From Kiritimatiellia bacterium (GTDB lineage Bacteria; Verrucomicrobiota; Kiritimatiellia; RFP12; UBA1067), in NCBI GenBank assembly GCA_024405255.1, contig JAKSOY010000161.1, positions 1 to 10,376 of the forward strand: a stretch of DNA of 10,376 nucleotides, written 5' to 3'. A model generated the notes under the pieces. The model saw nothing but the letters and a program-made list of their open reading frames with translations. It was not told the DNA's origin and ran no database searches. Shown one piece after another: positions 1,534 to 10,376 of the stretch. The position numbers were made by a program, and so were the translations under genes. How positions within the stretch are numbered: the stretch's first letter is position 1; every line of letters starts with the position of its first letter.

Positions 1534-3912
1534 TTACTTGAAATAACCGTAGGGTTGGCCACCATAGGGACACACGGCCACCGGCACGTCAAAGGTCTTA
1601 CCGCCATCGTTCGACACCTTCCACCCACGTATATTCGAGGGGAAGCGCACGATGCGGCCGTCTTTGTAGGTTGCCTCGACCATCGCGAGGAAACCCGCAC
1701 CCGTGCCGGCATGATTGACGGCGGCGACTTCAATCACGTTGCGACCCGGCTTGAGGTTCGTCCGTTCAAGACCGCACACCGGCGTGGGCGTGTACCAAAG
1801 CTTGCTGCCCGTCTGGCTGCCGACTTCACGACCATTGACCGAGACCACCGCGCTGTCGTCGCACGTGAAGATGAGCGCCGCCTTTTCAAGTTCGCCCGCC
1901 GGCAGGTCGAGTTCCGCACGGAACGACACCGCGGTCTCGGGCTTCAACGCCTTCGCATGCCAGATCCAGGTTGCACCGTCGAACTTGGGCGCCTCGCCCT
2001 TCTCAAGTCGGTCGAGCTGATCGGCCAGCGCCTTCTCGAGGTTCGAATCGAGCGCCACTTCGTCCGTGCGCACGCGCAGACCGCGGAACTCGATCTTCAT
2101 CGGCTTGCCTTGATGCATCTGCAACGAGATGTAGCCCTTCTTCGGCAGGAAGTCTTCCCGCGCATCGATCACCGCCGCCGTCCGTACGCCGTTGATCCAC
2201 ACGGCGATCATGCGGTCTTTCACGATGACGCGCAAATCGTTCCAGTCGTTTACGCGATAGAGCTTCTGAAGTTCCTTGCCGTCGGCAAACGGCGCGACGT
2301 TCTTCGCTCCGTTCGACGCGAGCGCCACATCCGCACCGCGTTCGCCCACGAGGTACTGGCGCGTATGGAAGATGTAGCCCACGATGTTCCCGCCGCCATC
2401 CATATCCGCCTGATAGCCGCTGTCGACAAGCAGTTCGTCCGTGCTGCGCAACTGGACGCCCGAGTTGGCGCCCGCGCTCAAACGGAATTCGCCGCGCAGT
2501 TCGAAGTCCGTGAACTGCTCCTTCGCATAGATGAGGTAGCGGCTCTTCTTGCAGGGATTCTGAGGCGTCGACTCCGCCGTCAGCACGCCGTCGCGCATGC
2601 TGAAGAACGTCCCGTCCTGTTTCCAGTCCGAGAGGTCCTTCGTGTTCCCCAGCGGACGGAACAGCACGGCATCGGACCCCGGTACGCGTCCTCGCCGTTC
2701 AAGCGCGGCAATGATGCGCCGCAGCGTCACCCGCGTGGCACCCTGCGCCTTCGCCCAGGCCTCGACCAGCGTCTTCGTGAGCGGACCCGGCAGCACCGTG
2801 TCGCCGAACGCGAGAATCTCGCCGTCCGCCACAACCGCCTGACGCACCGGACCTCCCCCCACCGTGTACGAGATGCGCAGCTGCTTCGGCTGTCCCGGTG
2901 CCGGGTCGGACGGGAATCCGCCGCGTCCCACCAGACGACAGCCGGCCATGATCTCGCGCGAACCCGCCTCCACCAAAGCATCGACCATCGGTTTCACATC
3001 CGCCACACGCCCGTTTTCGAAATTGCCGAACCGCGCGGAGACCACCTTCACCGACTGGCTCTCGGGCAGGAATTCCTGCGCGAGCAGACGGATGATCGAA
3101 CCTTCCAGACGATCCTCTTCGGGGAAGCTGTTGAGCAGGTCGAGGAGCGCCGGCAGATCCTGCTTCGCCGAACACAAGTACGCCAGGCACTTGAAGACGT
3201 CTTCCCGCCGGCGCGTATCCTGCGTCGCCTTCGCGAACGCAATCAGCTGCGGCAGCACCGCCCGCGCCCGACGCTCGCCGAGGAGCGTGGCCGCCAGACG
3301 CGCCTTCTTCGCATCAGGACCCTGCGTAACCAGATTCAAGAGCCGCCCGTCGAGCTGCGCATTCGGGAACGCCGCCAGCTGACGATGCGCGACCGACGCC
3401 GCTTCGCCAACGCCCAGCGCCGCCGCGAGCAAGGGCTCGATCTGCGCCGTCTCGCCGCGCTGCACCGCCGTCTTCGGAGGGAACGCCGTCACCGCCGCCG
3501 TCGCCCCGGCATAACCATCCGGCACCGGATTCGCACGAAAGGCCCGCACGTGCGCGACCGCCGTCCGGCGTGTTCCCGTCACCTTCGACTCGGCCGCCGC
3601 AAGCGCCGCATCCGCTTCCTTGCCCGAAATGTTCTGCAGCCCGTACAGCGCCGCATGGAAGAGGGCCGGCTGGGCCGCATCCGTCAGACGCGCCGCCAGC
3701 ACGGGTACGCTCGCAGCCGTCCCGCGATGCATCAACTCCTGGCAGGCCGTCACCTGGTCGGAGACCGCGCCCTTGCGAACAACCTCCAGCAGCTGCTGTT
3801 CGGACATCTTGTACGCGGCCTCGCCTTCCAAGCCGGCCATCGCCGAACCCGCCACCAGCAACAGCGCCGCCAGCAGGCTCCGATTCAGAATTTCAAAATC
3901 TCTATTCTTCAT
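1534..3912 (-). CDS. Secreted HEAT-repeat/DUF1080 (3-keto-glycoside hydrolase) protein
   Basis: The 792-residue protein has several modules. A signal peptide (about 1-26) ends in AGSAMA. An alpha-helical HEAT-like region (about 35-285) follows, then a linker region (about 290-410). A DUF1080/3-keto-disaccharide hydrolase domain (about 413-615) contains SGVQLRS, DWNDLRV and a GYISLQMHQG-type strand. The C-terminal beta domain (about 647-792) begins WIWH and resembles the galactose-binding-like fold. Characterised DUF1080 proteins cleave 3-keto-glycosides made by a partner dehydrogenase, and a Gfo/Idh/MocA gene sits immediately upstream. I chose the ATG at 3912 because GCGAGGTG precedes it at the right distance and the signal peptide then starts cleanly. 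A TTG at 3927 would add five residues. Family assignment is firm; the exact substrate is unknown. Confidence 0.85.
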   Translation of the reverse strand: MKNRDFEILNRSLLAALLLVAGSAMAGLEGEAAYKMSEQQLLEVVRKGAVSDQVTACQELMHRGTAASVPVLAARLTDAAQPALFHAALYGLQNISGKEADAALAAAESKVTGTRRTAVAHVRAFRANPVPDGYAGATAAVTAFPPKTAVQRGETAQIEPLLAAALGVGEAASVAHRQLAAFPNAQLDGRLLNLVTQGPDAKKARLAATLLGERRARAVLPQLIAFAKATQDTRRREDVFKCLAYLCSAKQDLPALLDLLNSFPEEDRLEGSIIRLLAQEFLPESQSVKVVSARFGNFENGRVADVKPMVDALVEAGSREIMAGCRLVGRGGFPSDPAPGQPKQLRISYTVGGGPVRQAVVADGEILAFGDTVLPGPLTKTLVEAWAKAQGATRVTLRRIIAALERRGRVPGSDAVLFRPLGNTKDLSDWKQDGTFFSMRDGVLTAESTPQNPCKKSRYLIYAKEQFTDFELRGEFRLSAGANSGVQLRSTDELLVDSGYQADMDGGGNIVGYIFHTRQYLVGERGADVALASNGAKNVAPFADGKELQKLYRVNDWNDLRVIVKDRMIAVWINGVRTAAVIDAREDFLPKKGYISLQMHQGKPMKIEFRGLRVRTDEVALDSNLEKALADQLDRLEKGEAPKFDGATWIWHAKALKPETAVSFRAELDLPAGELEKAALIFTCDDSAVVSVNGREVGSQTGSKLWYTPTPVCGLERTNLKPGRNVIEVAAVNHAGTGAGFLAMVEATYKDGRIVRFPSNIRGWKVSNDGGKTFDVPVAVCPYGGQPYGYFK

Positions 3913-3932
3913 TTGCGCACCTCGCAAGATTC

Positions 3933-5228
3933 TCAGATGATTTCCCAGCCCTGCCGCGGCGTACGCGCGAGCATGCGGTTTGCTTCGTCATCGTTGATGA
4001 AACGCTCCTTCACCGGATCCCACCGCAGATCGCGTCCGAGCCACTGCGCGATGTTCGCGCAATGCGTGCTCGTCATCGAACGGTGCATGAGAACCGCATT
4101 CGCCACCGTCTTGCCGCGCGTCTTACAGGCATTGAAGAACTGGCGCATGTGGTTCTCGGTCGTATAGCCCGTACGCAGACAGTAGTCCGCCAGGATCTTG
4201 TTGTAGTCCGCCAGCAACGACGGACGCGACACGTCAGGACGCGTATAGCCGTCCGCACACGACACCCAGCCTTCCGTACCCACATAGCGCACGCCGCATG
4301 TTCCACGCCAGCCGCGCTGTTCGGCGACCATCTCCTGTCCGTTCGCGAAACGCAGGGACAGGCCGTTCGGCTCCGCCTTGTGCACACACGGATAGAACAC
4401 CGGCGACGTCGCCTCCATGCCGAGCGCATCGTGGCACTGCGCGTAGGTGTGGCTGCACCAGTCGCCGATGATGCTCGTACCGAAGTCGTAGAAATGCTGC
4501 CAGGCGCCAAGATAGTATGAGTTGTACGGATGCCACGGACACGGCCCCAGCCACGCATCCCAATCCACCACGTCCTTCGGCGGTTCCGGCTGGGCCGGCA
4601 ACCATGTGCGCTGCAGGAAGAGCGGCGTGCCGAAGTAGAGATGCGCATACACTTTCTTCACTTCGCCGAGGCGCCCCAACCGCAGCAGTTCGTTGCAGAC
4701 AATGAAGTTCGGTTCGCTCAACCGCTGCAGGCCCGCCTGGTAGACGCGACCGTACTTCGCCGCCGTCGCCACCACCGCCTGACCTTCGTGCACCGTCATC
4801 GCGGACGGCTTTTCACAGTACACGTCCTTGCCCGCGCGCATCGCCAGAACGGACATCGGTGCATGCCACCGGTCGCCCGTCGCAATGTAGACGCAGTCGA
4901 TGTCCTTGCGCGCCAGCAATTCCCGCACATCGATGTAGACCTTGCAGTCCTTGTTGCCGTAATGGCGGTCGACCATGTTCTTGATGCGCAGACGACGCTC
5001 TCGGCGCACATCGCAGTCTGCGACGAACTGAATGTCCTTCTCCGCCAGCGCCCAACCCGGCAACACCCCGCCGCCGCGGCGGCCGATGCCAATGCCCGCC
5101 ATCACCAGTCGATTGGACGGCGCGACCTTGCCATCAAGGCCCAATGCGGACGCGGGTACGAACGTCGGCAACGCGACCGCGCCCAACCCCGCCAAAAACG
5201 AACGACGTGAAATCTGAATTGTTTTCAT
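3933..5228 (-). CDS. Tat-exported Gfo/Idh/MocA family oxidoreductase
   Basis: The 431-residue protein is an NAD(P)-dependent sugar oxidoreductase. The N-terminus has a twin-arginine signal, ISRRSFLAGLG (R8, R9), so it is probably exported folded with its cofactor bound. A Rossmann region (about 40-160) starts with the Gly-rich GIGIGRRGGG and carries the family motif CEKP (138-141, with K140 as the usual catalytic or binding Lys). The C-terminal domain contains GDWCSH (255-260), matching the family's D-x3-H pattern. Export and the adjacent DUF1080 gene suggest that it oxidises C3 of a glycoside to the 3-keto form for hydrolysis by that partner. This is inferred from known gut bacterial pairs. 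A clear AAAGGAA ribosome binding site precedes the ATG, 24 bases after the upstream stop. Confidence 0.85.
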   Translation of the reverse strand: MKTIQISRRSFLAGLGAVALPTFVPASALGLDGKVAPSNRLVMAGIGIGRRGGGVLPGWALAEKDIQFVADCDVRRERRLRIKNMVDRHYGNKDCKVYIDVRELLARKDIDCVYIATGDRWHAPMSVLAMRAGKDVYCEKPSAMTVHEGQAVVATAAKYGRVYQAGLQRLSEPNFIVCNELLRLGRLGEVKKVYAHLYFGTPLFLQRTWLPAQPEPPKDVVDWDAWLGPCPWHPYNSYYLGAWQHFYDFGTSIIGDWCSHTYAQCHDALGMEATSPVFYPCVHKAEPNGLSLRFANGQEMVAEQRGWRGTCGVRYVGTEGWVSCADGYTRPDVSRPSLLADYNKILADYCLRTGYTTENHMRQFFNACKTRGKTVANAVLMHRSMTSTHCANIAQWLGRDLRWDPVKERFINDDEANRMLARTPRQGWEII

Positions 5229-5252
5229 AGGAATTCCTTTGTGTCACGATGA

Positions 5253-6968
5253 TCACGGTTTCACACGGTTGCCATTCTCCTGCACAGGAACATTCGCGCC
5301 CGTCAGTTCGCGGAGGAGTTCAAGCTCCTTCGGGTTGTAGGGCGTGTGATCGGCATGGAAGAGATCGTGCTTCCAGCGGCCCGTGTACGGCGGCTTGTCG
5401 GCGCAGTAGCCGAACGGCAGATGGGTCTGCGTCTTGCCGTTCACGAGACCCCACATCATGCAGCCGACGCCCCTCTCCTTGTAGATGCCGAGGCAGTGCT
5501 CGATGTCGCAGTCGCCGTAGCGGAGGAACCATTCGGTGCACACCATCGGACGCCCCAGCTTCGAGAGTTCGTCGATCATCGCGCGCGTCCGCTGCGCGTT
5601 GCTGTAGCAGTGGTAGGAGATGATGTCGCTTTCGCGCGCCACCAGCCGGTTCAGCTGCGCATTGCCATTCCAGCGGCCCACCGTGAGCGGCTGCGAGGGA
5701 TTGACGGACCGCGCCCACACGAAGCACTTCTTCACAAGCGCCAGCGAATACTTCGAATAGCCGCCCATGCCGTTGACGGGCTCGTTGTAGAGGTCCCACG
5801 CGAAGATGCGCGGATCGTCCTTGTGGGTGGAGATGAGATCCTTCACGTACTTTTCGAGCTTGCCGTGCGTGCGGTGGTCCACGACCATCGTGTAGCCGGG
5901 CGACGGCGTCCAGCCCCACATGTTCCAGCCGATGAGCGGATCGGTCTGCTTGCCGAGCGTGGGTTCGGTGGCGAGGCCGAACGAGCAGTCGTCGAACAAC
6001 GTGGGCATCACCTTGAGCTTCGCCTCGTCGGCGAGCTGAAGATACTTCTCGAACGCCTTGTGGAACCACACGGGGTCATGTTCGTAGACCTTGTACTGGA
6101 TGAAGATGCGCACGCAGTTGAAGCCGAGTCCGGTCGCAAGCTTGAACTCGTCCTTGATCACATCGGGCGAGAACGTCTCCTCCTGCCAGATCTCCGTGTC
6201 GTTGATCGCATTGGCGGGCACGTGGTTGAAACCGCAGAACCACGGATTGGACTTCCCCCAAGCCTGCGCACGCGCAATCGACCAGCGCCGAGGACCCGCC
6301 GCCACCGGATCGTCCGGCGCGCGGAAAGCGCCACCGCCCGCATTCGCAAAGAACTTGCGCGTGACGCGATCGTAGAGACCGACCGCGCGGTCGCCCAGAC
6401 GACGCGCCGGCACGAAGTCGCGCAGAATCTCGCCAGAGTCCTGGCCGATCTTCATCGCATAGAGCCGGAACTCGCCGCCCGTGCTATGCTGCGAATTGCA
6501 CTTGAAGAGCCAGAGCGGATGGTGCGAGGACGACGACCGGTCGGTCGCAAGCGCGCAGAGTTCCTTGCCGGCGGCGTCGAAAAGACGCGCCTTGCTGTCC
6601 GTGCCCAACACAAAACGGTAGTCGCGCTCTTCGGTGGGATCCATGTCGATCAGATTCCACATCGGCCCCGGTTCCCTGCCCGTGTTGCCGAAGAAGCGGA
6701 AGTGCTCGTTCTGGAGGATGAAGAGGAACCCCTTGGGGTCCCACACGTTCTTGCCGAAGAACGTCGCCCCCTGCGAATAGAGGCAGTGGCCGAACGACAG
6801 ATCGACCGTCGTCTTCGCTCCGGCGTCCACGCCGGTGTCGATGTACTGTTCGCCCGTGGACTCGATCCACGCGAGCGGCGCAAAACCCTCCGCCAGTTTT
6901 TCTGCGGCAAACGCGCTTCCCACCAGAACGGCGACCGTCGCCGCCAACATGCACTTCGTCATTTTCAT
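5253..6968 (-). CDS. Secreted LamG-like + GH5-like (clan GH-A) glycosidase
   Basis: The 571-residue protein has a signal peptide (1-21, ending SAFA) and a LamG-like module (about 30-216). That module starts WIESTGEQYIDTGV and ends near DFVPARRLGDRAVGLYDR, a pattern known from PVC and gut phage proteins. A TIM-barrel glycosidase follows (about 228-560). The probable acid/base is E396 in WDLYNEP and the probable nucleophile is E479 in CTEW. A motif rich in aromatics, GWNMWGWTPSPG, lies between them. The fold points to clan GH-A, closest to GH5-type cellulase-family proteins; I cannot name a subfamily or substrate, though a beta-linked glycan is likely. The start is 1 base after the stop of the upstream paralogue. 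M3 is an alternative start. Confidence 0.82.
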   Translation of the reverse strand: MKMTKCMLAATVAVLVGSAFAAEKLAEGFAPLAWIESTGEQYIDTGVDAGAKTTVDLSFGHCLYSQGATFFGKNVWDPKGFLFILQNEHFRFFGNTGREPGPMWNLIDMDPTEERDYRFVLGTDSKARLFDAAGKELCALATDRSSSSHHPLWLFKCNSQHSTGGEFRLYAMKIGQDSGEILRDFVPARRLGDRAVGLYDRVTRKFFANAGGGAFRAPDDPVAAGPRRWSIARAQAWGKSNPWFCGFNHVPANAINDTEIWQEETFSPDVIKDEFKLATGLGFNCVRIFIQYKVYEHDPVWFHKAFEKYLQLADEAKLKVMPTLFDDCSFGLATEPTLGKQTDPLIGWNMWGWTPSPGYTMVVDHRTHGKLEKYVKDLISTHKDDPRIFAWDLYNEPVNGMGGYSKYSLALVKKCFVWARSVNPSQPLTVGRWNGNAQLNRLVARESDIISYHCYSNAQRTRAMIDELSKLGRPMVCTEWFLRYGDCDIEHCLGIYKERGVGCMMWGLVNGKTQTHLPFGYCADKPPYTGRWKHDLFHADHTPYNPKELELLRELTGANVPVQENGNRVKP

Positions 6969-6969
6969 C

Positions 6970-8037
6970 TCACTTCACCCCCGTTGCTTTCTTGATGATC
7001 TCGAGGTCCTTCACATCGTAGGGTGTGTGGTCGGGCCGGTACAGGTCGTGCTTCCAGGGCCCCTTGAAGTTCGGCGTGTAGACGCCGTTGGGCAGGTGCG
7101 TCTGCGACTTGCCGTTGACGAGTCCCCAGATCATGCTGCCCACGCCCGTTTCCTTGTAGATGGGAAGGATGTTCGGGATGTCGCAGCCGTTAGGACGATA
7201 GAGCCATTCGGTGCAGATGACAGGGCGGCCCAGCTGGACCATGTCCTTCAGCACCTTCCGCGTGCCGTCGGCAGGCTGATAGCAGTGGAACGTGATGATG
7301 TCGCTTTCATTCAGCACGATGTCGTTGACCCCCTTGTCGTTGTTCCAGCGGCAGACGGTCAGCGGCTGCGAGGGATTGATTTCACGCGCCCACGTGAAGC
7401 ACTTCTTCACGAGCGCAAGCGAATGCCGGCTGAAGCGGCCCATCGCGAACGTCGGCTCGTTGTAGAGGTCCCACACGAAAATGCGCGGATCGTCCTTGTG
7501 ATGGAGGATCACCGACTTCACGTATTCCTCGAGCCTGCCGTGCGTGCGGGAATCGGCCACCATCGTGTGTCCGGGCGACGGCACCCAGCCCCACATGCCC
7601 CACCCCGGCAGCGGCTCGGTCTGCTTGCCGAGTTCGGGATCGGTCGCGGGACCGAACTTGCAGTCGTCGAACAGCACCGGCATCACCTTGAGCTTCGCCT
7701 CGTCGGCGAGCTGCAGGTAGCGCTCGAACGCGCGCAGGAACCACACAGGGTCGTCCTCGTACACCTTGTACTGCAGGAAGATGCGCACGCAGTTGAAGCC
7801 GAGATCCGACGCGAGCTTGAATTCCTTACGCAGAACCTCGGGCGAGAAGCCGCCCTTCTGCCAGATGTCGACGTCGTTGATCGCGTTCGCGGGAATCTGG
7901 TTGAATCCGCAATACCACGGATTCGCCTTGCCCCAGGCCTGCGCCCGTTCAAGCGTCCAGCGCGCACCCGGCGCCGCCAGCACCGCCGCCGCCACGCAGG
8001 CGGCACCGATCAAACAGCTGATTCTCTTCAGTTCCAT
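6970..8037 (-). CDS. Secreted GH5-like (clan GH-A) glycosidase, single domain
   Basis: The 355-residue protein has a signal peptide (about 1-22, hydrophobic CLIGAACVAAAVLAA) followed directly by the catalytic barrel. The probable acid/base is E194 in WDLYNEP and the probable nucleophile is E277 in CTEW. It aligns over its whole length with the catalytic half of the next gene and by eye is about two-thirds identical, sharing stretches such as KYLQLADEAKLKVMP with one change. It lacks the LamG-like module. The start at 8037 is supported by AAAGGACT upstream and by the clean signal peptide. The frame extends 45 codons further upstream, but that part is Arg-rich and overlaps the epimerase gene. 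Substrate unknown; retained catalytic residues suggest an active enzyme. Confidence 0.85.
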   Translation of the reverse strand: MELKRISCLIGAACVAAAVLAAPGARWTLERAQAWGKANPWYCGFNQIPANAINDVDIWQKGGFSPEVLRKEFKLASDLGFNCVRIFLQYKVYEDDPVWFLRAFERYLQLADEAKLKVMPVLFDDCKFGPATDPELGKQTEPLPGWGMWGWVPSPGHTMVADSRTHGRLEEYVKSVILHHKDDPRIFVWDLYNEPTFAMGRFSRHSLALVKKCFTWAREINPSQPLTVCRWNNDKGVNDIVLNESDIITFHCYQPADGTRKVLKDMVQLGRPVICTEWLYRPNGCDIPNILPIYKETGVGSMIWGLVNGKSQTHLPNGVYTPNFKGPWKHDLYRPDHTPYDVKDLEIIKKATGVK

Positions 8038-8053
8038 TGGTTGTAGTCCTTTG

Positions 8054-9205
8054 TTAGTTGGCACGGAAACGGTATTCCGTCTTGGTGCGATAGGTTTCGC
8101 CCGGACGCAGCGTCGTCTGCGGATAATCGGGACGATTCGGCGTATTCGGATGATGCTGCGTCTCCATCGCAATGTGGCTGCGCGGCATCATCTGGATGCC
8201 ATCCTTCATCGTCCAGCGGCGCTCGATGAGATTGCCCGAATAGAACTGCACGCCCGGCTGGTCGGTCCAGATTTCCATCCGCCGCTTGTCGCCGCGCATT
8301 TCCGACACCTTGCGGAAACCCGTGCCGTTGAGGCAGAAGCTGTGGTCGTAGCCGGGATCGATCTGCACGTCGCGGTCAGGCGCGTTGATGCGCTCGCCGA
8401 TCTTGTGGAACGTGCGGAAGTCGAACGGCGTGCCCACCACGGACTTCGGCGGCCCGGGCAGCGGATTGAGCTTCCCGTCCACCGAAACATAGCGGTCGGC
8501 GTCGATCTGCAGGTCCTGTCCGTGCACGTCGCCCGTGCCGTTCAGGTTGAAGTAGACATGCTGCGTGAGGTTCATCGGCGTCGCCTTGTCCGTCGTCGCC
8601 TCGTATTCGATGCGCCACGTGTTGTCGGGCGTGATCGTATAGGTCACCTTCGCATCGACGTTCCCCGGGAAACCCTGCTCGCCGTCGGGAAAGCGCTTTG
8701 TGAAGACGATGCCCACGTCGTCGCCGCGTGTGAACGTTTCGGCCTTCCACACGAAGGAATACCAGCCGCGGGTACCGCCGTGGAGATGGCAGTCGCGCGT
8801 CACGTCGTTGCAGTCGAGCTGGTAGGTCTTGCCGTCAAGCGTGAAGCGTCCCTGCCAGATGCGGTTGCCGTAGCGGCCGATGATCGCCCCGAAGAACGGA
8901 TCGGTATCGTCCCAGCCCTTCACCGAGTCGAAGCCGATCGTCACGTCCACGAGCACACCCTTCGCATCCGGCACCAAGAGGCGCGACACGCGCCCGCCGT
9001 AGTCCGTGACTTCCATCACGAGGCCGCCCTTGCCGCGCAGCACATACGCCTTCGCCTGCTCGCCATGCTTCGTCACGCCGAACGGACGCGGCGACACTTC
9101 CAGGGCCTTCGGCAACCCTACCGCCATCGCCGAATTCAACCCTCCCATCATCATCGTCGCCGCGCACAGCACGGCGCCACACACTGCCATCTTTCTGTTT
9201 TTCAT
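8054..9205 (-). CDS. galM: Secreted aldose 1-epimerase (galactose mutarotase)
   Basis: The 383-residue protein interconverts alpha and beta anomers of free aldoses. The family landmarks are in order: GRYGNRI (about 110-116), LHGG with catalytic H142, TQHVYFNLNG with H216, GYDHSF with D287, PGVQFYSGN, and METQ with the catalytic-base Glu at E348 followed by HHPNTPN. A signal peptide of 28 residues (ending NSAMA) makes it extracytoplasmic, unlike cytosolic GalM of the Leloir pathway. It probably acts on sugars released by the two glycosidases encoded just downstream. A strong AAAGGAG ribosome binding site lies 4 bases before the ATG. It is the first gene of the operon, with 109 bases to the gene upstream. 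Confidence 0.92.
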   Translation of the reverse strand: MKNRKMAVCGAVLCAATMMMGGLNSAMAVGLPKALEVSPRPFGVTKHGEQAKAYVLRGKGGLVMEVTDYGGRVSRLLVPDAKGVLVDVTIGFDSVKGWDDTDPFFGAIIGRYGNRIWQGRFTLDGKTYQLDCNDVTRDCHLHGGTRGWYSFVWKAETFTRGDDVGIVFTKRFPDGEQGFPGNVDAKVTYTITPDNTWRIEYEATTDKATPMNLTQHVYFNLNGTGDVHGQDLQIDADRYVSVDGKLNPLPGPPKSVVGTPFDFRTFHKIGERINAPDRDVQIDPGYDHSFCLNGTGFRKVSEMRGDKRRMEIWTDQPGVQFYSGNLIERRWTMKDGIQMMPRSHIAMETQHHPNTPNRPDYPQTTLRPGETYRTKTEYRFRAN

Positions 9206-9314: not shown

Positions 9315-10376
9315 TCACATCAACCCTCCTTCAAGGAAGCTAAAGTACTCCTTACGATTGAAAACAATATGGTCAAGAAGCATAACCCCAACAATATCGC
9401 CCACTTGTCTGATGTGGTTGGTCATTTGGATGTCGGCATCCGAGGGCCGAAGCACACCCTCTGGATGGTTGTGAGCTATGACAATACCGGCGGCCTTGTC
9501 CGCCACAGCCCGAAAAAAGACCTCTCGAATATCAGGCGATGCCCGATCGAATGATCCAACAGCAACCGTATGCGTGTTAATCACCTCATTTGCACCATTG
9601 AGGGTAATGCAGAGAACATGTTCCTGGTGCTGAAAAGCAAAATGGCGAACCAACGGTAGAACGTCCTTTGTCTCGCGAATCTCGTCAATCATCTCCTGCA
9701 CGGAGACCTTCTTCTGCGGAACACCCGGGCCATGGCCCTTTCGGCTCGGTTTCAACGCAACAATTCCGTTGCCAGACCGAACCCCCTGGAACTTGACGCT
9801 CGCCTTGACGACTTCGGTGTGACGCATGGCCTGCATCAATTCGCTCATCGATCCCTGCTTGATCAACTGACGGCCAACGACATCTGCAAAGACATACGCG
9901 TCCAGCATGTCGCTTCCGAAATCATAATCCCTCCTGAAGAAGTCCACTTGTTTGACGTATTTCGCAAGAAGCCGAACGTAGTCCTTCCGCGGTCCAATGT
10001 CACTCACGCGCGTCTGGAAGATCTGCCGTAACGCACCAACGCGATACTGGACCTGCGCATCCGTCGCCGTGCGGGCCAATGCCGCGAATTGAGTAATGTC
10101 ACCCAGGGTGAATATCGCCGCGTCCAGAATCTGCCGATAGAGTTCTTTCGCCCGCTCGGGATCCGGTGGATCGGGCTCGTAGGGCGTCCCCTCGCGATAC
10201 TTGGCAAAAGCCCTGAGAATCGCGTCTGCATTATTCGTGAAATCCACCACAACGACACGATCCTTGCCCGGACACTTGCGATTGAGTCGCGAGACGGTCT
10301 GTACGGCATTACGATCCACAATCGGCTTGTCAATGAACATCCCCGCCAACAACGGCTGGTTAAATCCCGTCTGAAA
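9315..10376 (-). CDS. HsdR-like restriction helicase C-terminus fused to RadC-type JAB domain (5' partial)
   Basis: The frame is open through the right edge; 353 residues are visible. They begin FQTGFNQPLLAG, followed by AVQTVSRLNR (helicase motif VI) and KDRVVVVDF, as in type I restriction R subunits and related SF2 translocases. A helical region follows (about 70-200) containing DYVRLLAKYVKQVDFF and a YVFADVVGRQL stretch, again like the HsdR C-terminus, then SVQEMIDEI. Where HsdR proteins normally continue with a short tail, this one enters a JAB domain (about 233-353) with a complete metal site: HNHPEGVLRPSDAD fits H-x-H-x7-S-x2-D, and an upstream REVFF Glu is present. It ends LLDHIVFN...FLEGG like RadC. 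The nuclease and ATP-binding parts would lie outside the window. Codon use is less GC-biased than in the operon, which may indicate transfer. Confidence 0.85.
   Translation of the reverse strand, partial: FQTGFNQPLLAGMFIDKPIVDRNAVQTVSRLNRKCPGKDRVVVVDFTNNADAILRAFAKYREGTPYEPDPPDPERAKELYRQILDAAIFTLGDITQFAALARTATDAQVQYRVGALRQIFQTRVSDIGPRKDYVRLLAKYVKQVDFFRRDYDFGSDMLDAYVFADVVGRQLIKQGSMSELMQAMRHTEVVKASVKFQGVRSGNGIVALKPSRKGHGPGVPQKKVSVQEMIDEIRETKDVLPLVRHFAFQHQEHVLCITLNGANEVINTHTVAVGSFDRASPDIREVFFRAVADKAAGIVIAHNHPEGVLRPSDADIQMTNHIRQVGDIVGVMLLDHIVFNRKEYFSFLEGGLM

Follow-up and report, generated by a model that had tools for sequence, protein, structure and literature searches.

The question raised by this locus is whether an open frame at the right-hand end of the window, which runs uninterrupted from a restriction helicase into a RadC-type JAB domain, represents a new protein architecture or a join between two ordinary genes. 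By the window we mean the whole stretch of DNA analysed, the 10,376 nt of contig JAKSOY010000161.1 from the Kiritimatiellia bacterium assembly GCA_024405255.1. The minus-strand frame 10376-9315 contains no stop from the window end to a TGA at 9317-9315 and comprises 353 codons, whose parts are given in Table 1. About 650 N-terminal HsdR residues, as measured on the intact HsdR of a related locus (L001), fall beyond the contig together with the rest of the operon, and what the frame keeps of the SF2 motor is its end, with motif VI only.

Table 1. Parts of the joined hsdR-radC frame, in window coordinates; residues are counted along the frame unless stated otherwise.
Feature	Position	Strand	Basis or remark
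3' part of hsdR	9672..10376	minus	TIGR00348 and PADLOC REase_I matches; identity to L001 HsdR and P0142; 5' end off contig
Content of the hsdR part: final portion of helicase domain 2, then a portion of the C-terminal helical domain	9672..10376	minus	Corresponds to residues 652-886 of L001 HsdR
Motif VI, QTVSRLNR	10301-10278	minus	Residues 26-33
Junction, codons DEIRE|T (reads on DEIRE|TKDV)	9669..9686	minus	Residues 231-236
radC C-terminal JAB domain, 118 residues	9318..9671	minus	PF04002; lacks the UPF0758_N N-terminal domain
Metal motif H-x-H-x7-S-x2-D	9473-9432	minus	Residues 302-315; here with HNH
TGA stop of the joined frame	9315..9317	minus	Open frame listing

Both halves could be assigned from profile matches. 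Towards the N-terminus, the PADLOC REase_I profile matches residues 3-62 (E 3.4e-11) and TIGR00348 (hsdR) residues 2-62 (E 1.3e-7, 30.6 bits, far under a cut-off that is set for the full protein), in addition to a weak T1R_D3-like match at residues 2-46 (Pfam E 6.3e-4, 20.6 bits against a cut-off of 27). Towards the C-terminus, RadC PF04002 matches residues 235-351 (E 3.9e-34), and the metal motif is kept; in the abstract of PMC300881 the general JAMM motif is written with H-S/T-H. The first-pass annotation had described a single open frame leading from helicase motif VI through a helical tail into a JAB domain with an intact metal site, with an HsdR-like N-terminal part, a RadC-type C-terminal part and a join near 9680 without a stop, and the frame, the Pfam and PADLOC matches, the metal motif and a junction at 9686-9669 all bear this description out.

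Each half also has an intact, separate counterpart. The HsdR half is identical at 232 of 235 residues to P0142, an intact HsdR of 975 aa, and at 220 of 235 to the HsdR of L001, and is thus a genuine member of a type I R subfamily. The RadC half, counted from I233, is identical at 121 of 121 residues to the last 121 residues of P0050, an intact RadC of 219 aa that carries both PF04002 and PF20582; the latter domain (UPF0758_N) is found in P0050 and P0122 and is absent from the window frame. A genome scan with the window protein led to two loci, L001 in a Kiritimatiellae MAG from goat duodenum and L002 in a MAG labelled Selenomonadaceae, both of which match residues 1-235 only (94% and 78%, respectively). 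In each of them an hsdR of 976 residues is followed, after one base, by a separate radC of 219 residues.

In the residue numbering of L001, the join connects HsdR position 886 with RadC position 102. Approximately 577 bases of L001 are therefore absent, which comprise 90 codons of hsdR, its stop and 101 codons of radC. Division of 577 by 3 leaves a remainder of 1, which equals the offset between the two frames, and the reading frame is therefore kept. At the break, the HsdR of P0142 reads DEIRER, the RadC of P0050 reads KIRETK and the window reads DEIRETK; Ile-Arg-Glu is common to both parents, and a cut anywhere within it yields the observed sequence, a pattern that deletion across short direct repeats would produce. 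At the break in L001 the corresponding stretches do not repeat each other exactly, and the direct repeats found around it leave out the break itself; the short parental repeat is argued from the proteins alone. Our preferred reading, to which we assign a probability of roughly 0.6, is that the frame is what is left, still in frame, of hsdR and radC, two neighbours in a type I restriction operon that were joined by a recent rearrangement. The rearrangement is most likely a recent and private in-frame deletion or recombination, and its most likely course would be the loss of some 577 bases between short matching stretches encoding Ile-Arg-Glu in both genes (stretches that we know as protein only), so that hsdR would have lost its last 90 codons and its stop, and radC its first 101 codons. 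Such an event would have taken place in a cell, with both halves derived from one operon.

The relatedness of the two halves is unequal, which speaks against their having come from one long-standing operon by deletion alone. Against L001, identity is 93.6% for the HsdR half and just 68.6% for the RadC half, whereas L001 and L002 differ from each other more evenly, with 80.3% for whole HsdR and 77.2% for RadC, or 77.9% and 70.3% over the same parts; RadC proteins 95-98% identical to that of L001 do exist (4 of the 26 compared). This pattern may reflect an earlier replacement of radC by recombination, uneven evolution, or a join across two lineages, either in a cell or in vitro, and the halves may thus stem from different lineages. 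It is because of this discordance that we keep a second, distinctly less probable reading, in which the join arose artificially, through a chimera (of amplicon, read or contig) between the hsdR of one strain and the radC of a related strain at Ile-Arg-Glu. An artefact of this kind would also fit the fused form being a cluster with a single member sequence, the existence of intact forms of both halves, and a contig that itself ends inside hsdR. It fits less well with the stretch common to both genes, which we infer to be about 9-10 bases and hence far shorter than usual assembly k-mers. The fused protein is, moreover, listed on two contigs, although these may share reads, and the join is in frame, a weak argument given a one-in-three chance.

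If the fusion were an established architecture, more than one independent member would be required, and the searches brought up no fusion but the window protein (P0001) among the best 120 relatives in each. With the window protein as query, none of the other 119 of the best 120 relatives (from 1053) shows both domains by listed Pfam, and the four with the widest coverage (73-86%) have sequences that end in an ordinary HsdR C-terminus. With the HsdR of L001, PF04002 occurs in 0 of the best 120 of 2710 relatives, which were scored from the 7994 candidates with the largest number of words in common with the query. With the RadC P0050, the window protein is the only one of the best 120 of 1172 relatives that is not stand-alone; the other 119 have 211-225 residues, all are listed with PF20582 and all carry the metal motif. 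Searches covered sizes of 0.55-1.75 times the query (194-617 and 537-1708 residues), and any fusion of this kind within those sizes would be expected near the top of the window-protein or HsdR listing, where there is none. Among 161 genomes of the order of G001 (E 1e-30), the window protein matches G001 alone, as two separate pieces. Viral contigs scanned for close relatives of the window protein gave no match; the same collection, queried with an alignment of 14 HsdR proteins, yielded a single locus (L046), which is 98% identical over residues 1-501 and ends inside hsdR. In the plasmid (731) and phage (3) records with a match, the best place was always below 60% identity, with 26.6-32.4% in the rows listed (25 and 3, respectively).

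As far as these searches reach, the claim of a new fused effector architecture does not hold: none of the 120 listed HsdR relatives is fused, the window protein is the sole fusion among the 120 listed RadC relatives, each half is known in unfused copies that are identical or nearly so, and the fused form is without conserved parts of both proteins. Homologues that always encode the two parts separately had been named in the first-pass annotation as evidence that would speak against it, and the parts are separate in all relatives listed, the window protein excepted. A functional fusion, in which an HsdR motor and a JAB effector were selected in one chain in this lineage, is very improbable, for although both halves are unbroken up to the join, with no stop and the metal motif kept, and the neighbouring position of the two genes in relatives means that their functions may be linked, a second fusion turned up neither among the best 120 relatives in each search nor in the set of 161 genomes from the order, the fused chain lacks the conserved C-terminus of HsdR as well as the N-terminal domain of RadC, and the very high identity to unfused parents would leave little time for a history of its own. 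Seen as a fusion it is ordinary and does not warrant an entry as a new domain architecture.

Under the preferred reading of a recent rearrangement, the effect on the protein would follow from what the HsdR half has lost. The C-terminal helical domain is incomplete, since residues 886-975 of P0142 are missing from the window frame. Over these residues, 23 of 90 columns are invariant in 25 sequences, compared with 305 of 975 for the whole protein, and the mean identity to P0142 is 0.636 against 0.682 overall. Two structure models were of low confidence (pTM 0.39 and 0.27); the second, which can be read for local helices only, places predicted helices between residues 891 and 974, past the break. 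Because the C-terminal helical domain is cut through, the product would no longer be able to restrict DNA, and judging from its sequence it is probably restriction-deficient, while methylation by HsdM and HsdS would continue if hsdM and hsdS are intact off the contig. As a fusion it carries little weight, being a private and probably inactivating rearrangement or else a chimera.

The gene pair itself is the better lead. We defined members of the HsdR subfamily by at least 41% identity to the HsdR of L001 and searched overlapping groups of genomes, in which members occur in G001, G126 and G131 among the 288 genomes of the phylum of G001; in G002 alone among the 398 genomes of its phylum (E 1e-120); in G001, G126, G827, G861 and G902 among the 337 genomes of a class (E 1e-120); and in G131 alone among 197 genomes (E 1e-120). 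With spacing measured as far as the first Met in the radC frame, radC starts 0-4 bases past hsdR in all six loci with a readable hsdR 3' end (G001, G002, G126, G131, G861 and G902); G827, where the contig piece covers no more than the beginning of hsdR, was left out of this count. These six loci are L001 and L002 together with L010, L011, L042 and L045. The idea that the HsdR and RadC-type JAB proteins are associated thus held up, given that their genes are adjacent in one type I operon in L001 and L002 and adjacent in the four further loci. At 27 other HsdR loci from the 288-genome search (identity of 36% or less), no RadC was found in flanks reaching at most ~1.5 kb past the match, a distance beyond which a radC would be missed. 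A linkage test by equal-sized longest contigs, run first on 17 HsdR and 8 RadC rows chosen by eye and then on 119 and 117, gave three exact matches (80391, 7381 and 59290), as against five in six control shifts of 1-3 bases together, and weakly links three HsdR and three RadC clusters.

In the intact relatives, RadC, tightly coupled to HsdR, may act together with the restriction complex, or on that complex or the DNA products it makes. A tentative and rather doubtful extension of this is that this HsdR subfamily has RadC as a dedicated component, with hsdR and radC adjacent and probably coupled in translation at every readable locus, and with the JAB protein acting on the HsdR C-terminal assembly domain, a partner complex or the handled DNA. 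If so, the chance fusion would be a natural hint that both proteins work side by side, and RadC, whose function is disputed, would gain a definite biochemical setting; a RadC subfamily tied to a restriction motor offers a testable context for its role. According to parts of PMC5512222 and PMC11981726, RadC was named for a DNA repair role that has since been disputed, and RadC domains, which occur with DinG-type helicases, have been proposed to process nucleic acids; an excerpt of a preprint mentions RadC/ArdB antirestriction modules (PMC12458937). Among the papers listed by literature searches on RadC with restriction or defence, none is evidently about an hsdR-radC pair, and the word RadC is absent from the main text of the type I review PMC3874165 and of PMC12707154.

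Comparison with known systems places each element. The HSDR_N region, SWI2/SNF2 motor and domain 3 of EcoR124I HsdR (PDB 2w00, 4be7 and others) are also present in the intact relatives P0121 and P0142 (HSDR_N, SWI2_SNF2, ResIII and T1R_D3); EcoR124I HsdR is the solved relative of P0121, with a sequence match that covers only P0121 residues 271-441. Unlike EcoR124I HsdR, the copy in the window has a RadC JAB domain at its end, and its own last 90 residues are missing. As in type I systems, hsdM and hsdS are held in the operons of L001 and L002. The window shares with the RadC/UPF0758 family (PF04002 and PF20582; PDB 2qlc, whose JAB domain structure is matched by residues 98-218 of P0050) a JAB domain with H-x-H-x7-S-x2-D, but its copy is without UPF0758_N, and in the six loci read radC comes after hsdR. 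A RadC domain and an SF2 helicase in one chain, as in the window, are described in parts of PMC11981726 for RadC-like DinG and of PMC5512222 for polyvalent proteins; there they form a recognised subgroup, with RadC N-terminal in DinG, whereas the window is a single case and its helicase is HsdR. PrrC beside EcoprrI (type IC), as presented in sections of PMC12707154, is like radC an accessory gene inside a type I locus, but PrrC is an anticodon nuclease and the activity of RadC is not established.

The operons of the relatives carry further genes. In L001, hsdM and hsdS are separated by a GajA-like gene (PDLC00094, E 1e-164) and a GajB-like gene (PDLC00114, E 1e-236) at 3001-6666, and this type I restriction operon thus has a Gabija-like pair inside it. 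In L002, the gene for a YhcG/DUF1016 nuclease (4167-5207) separates hsdS from hsdR and overlaps each neighbour by 4 bases. The cargo thus differs between the two operons, GajA-GajB in one and a YhcG-type gene in the other, and radC stays in both.

Elsewhere in the window, for which Rfam gave no match, positions 34-179 hold two copies of a 66-base element that are 91% alike and begin 80 bases from each other. Both copies contain an inverted repeat, with arm complementarity of 83% over 18 bases and 92% over 13 bases. Positions 620-704, directly beyond an acyltransferase-like gene on its 3' side, consist of 8-base units in tandem (CGAACAAT / CGACCAAT), about 10 copies with 88% matches. At 3933-9205, two genes side by side match GH5 (Pfam E 1.1e-7 and 3.8e-5); they are flanked by aldose 1-epimerase and Gfo/Idh/MocA oxidoreductase genes, all on the minus strand.
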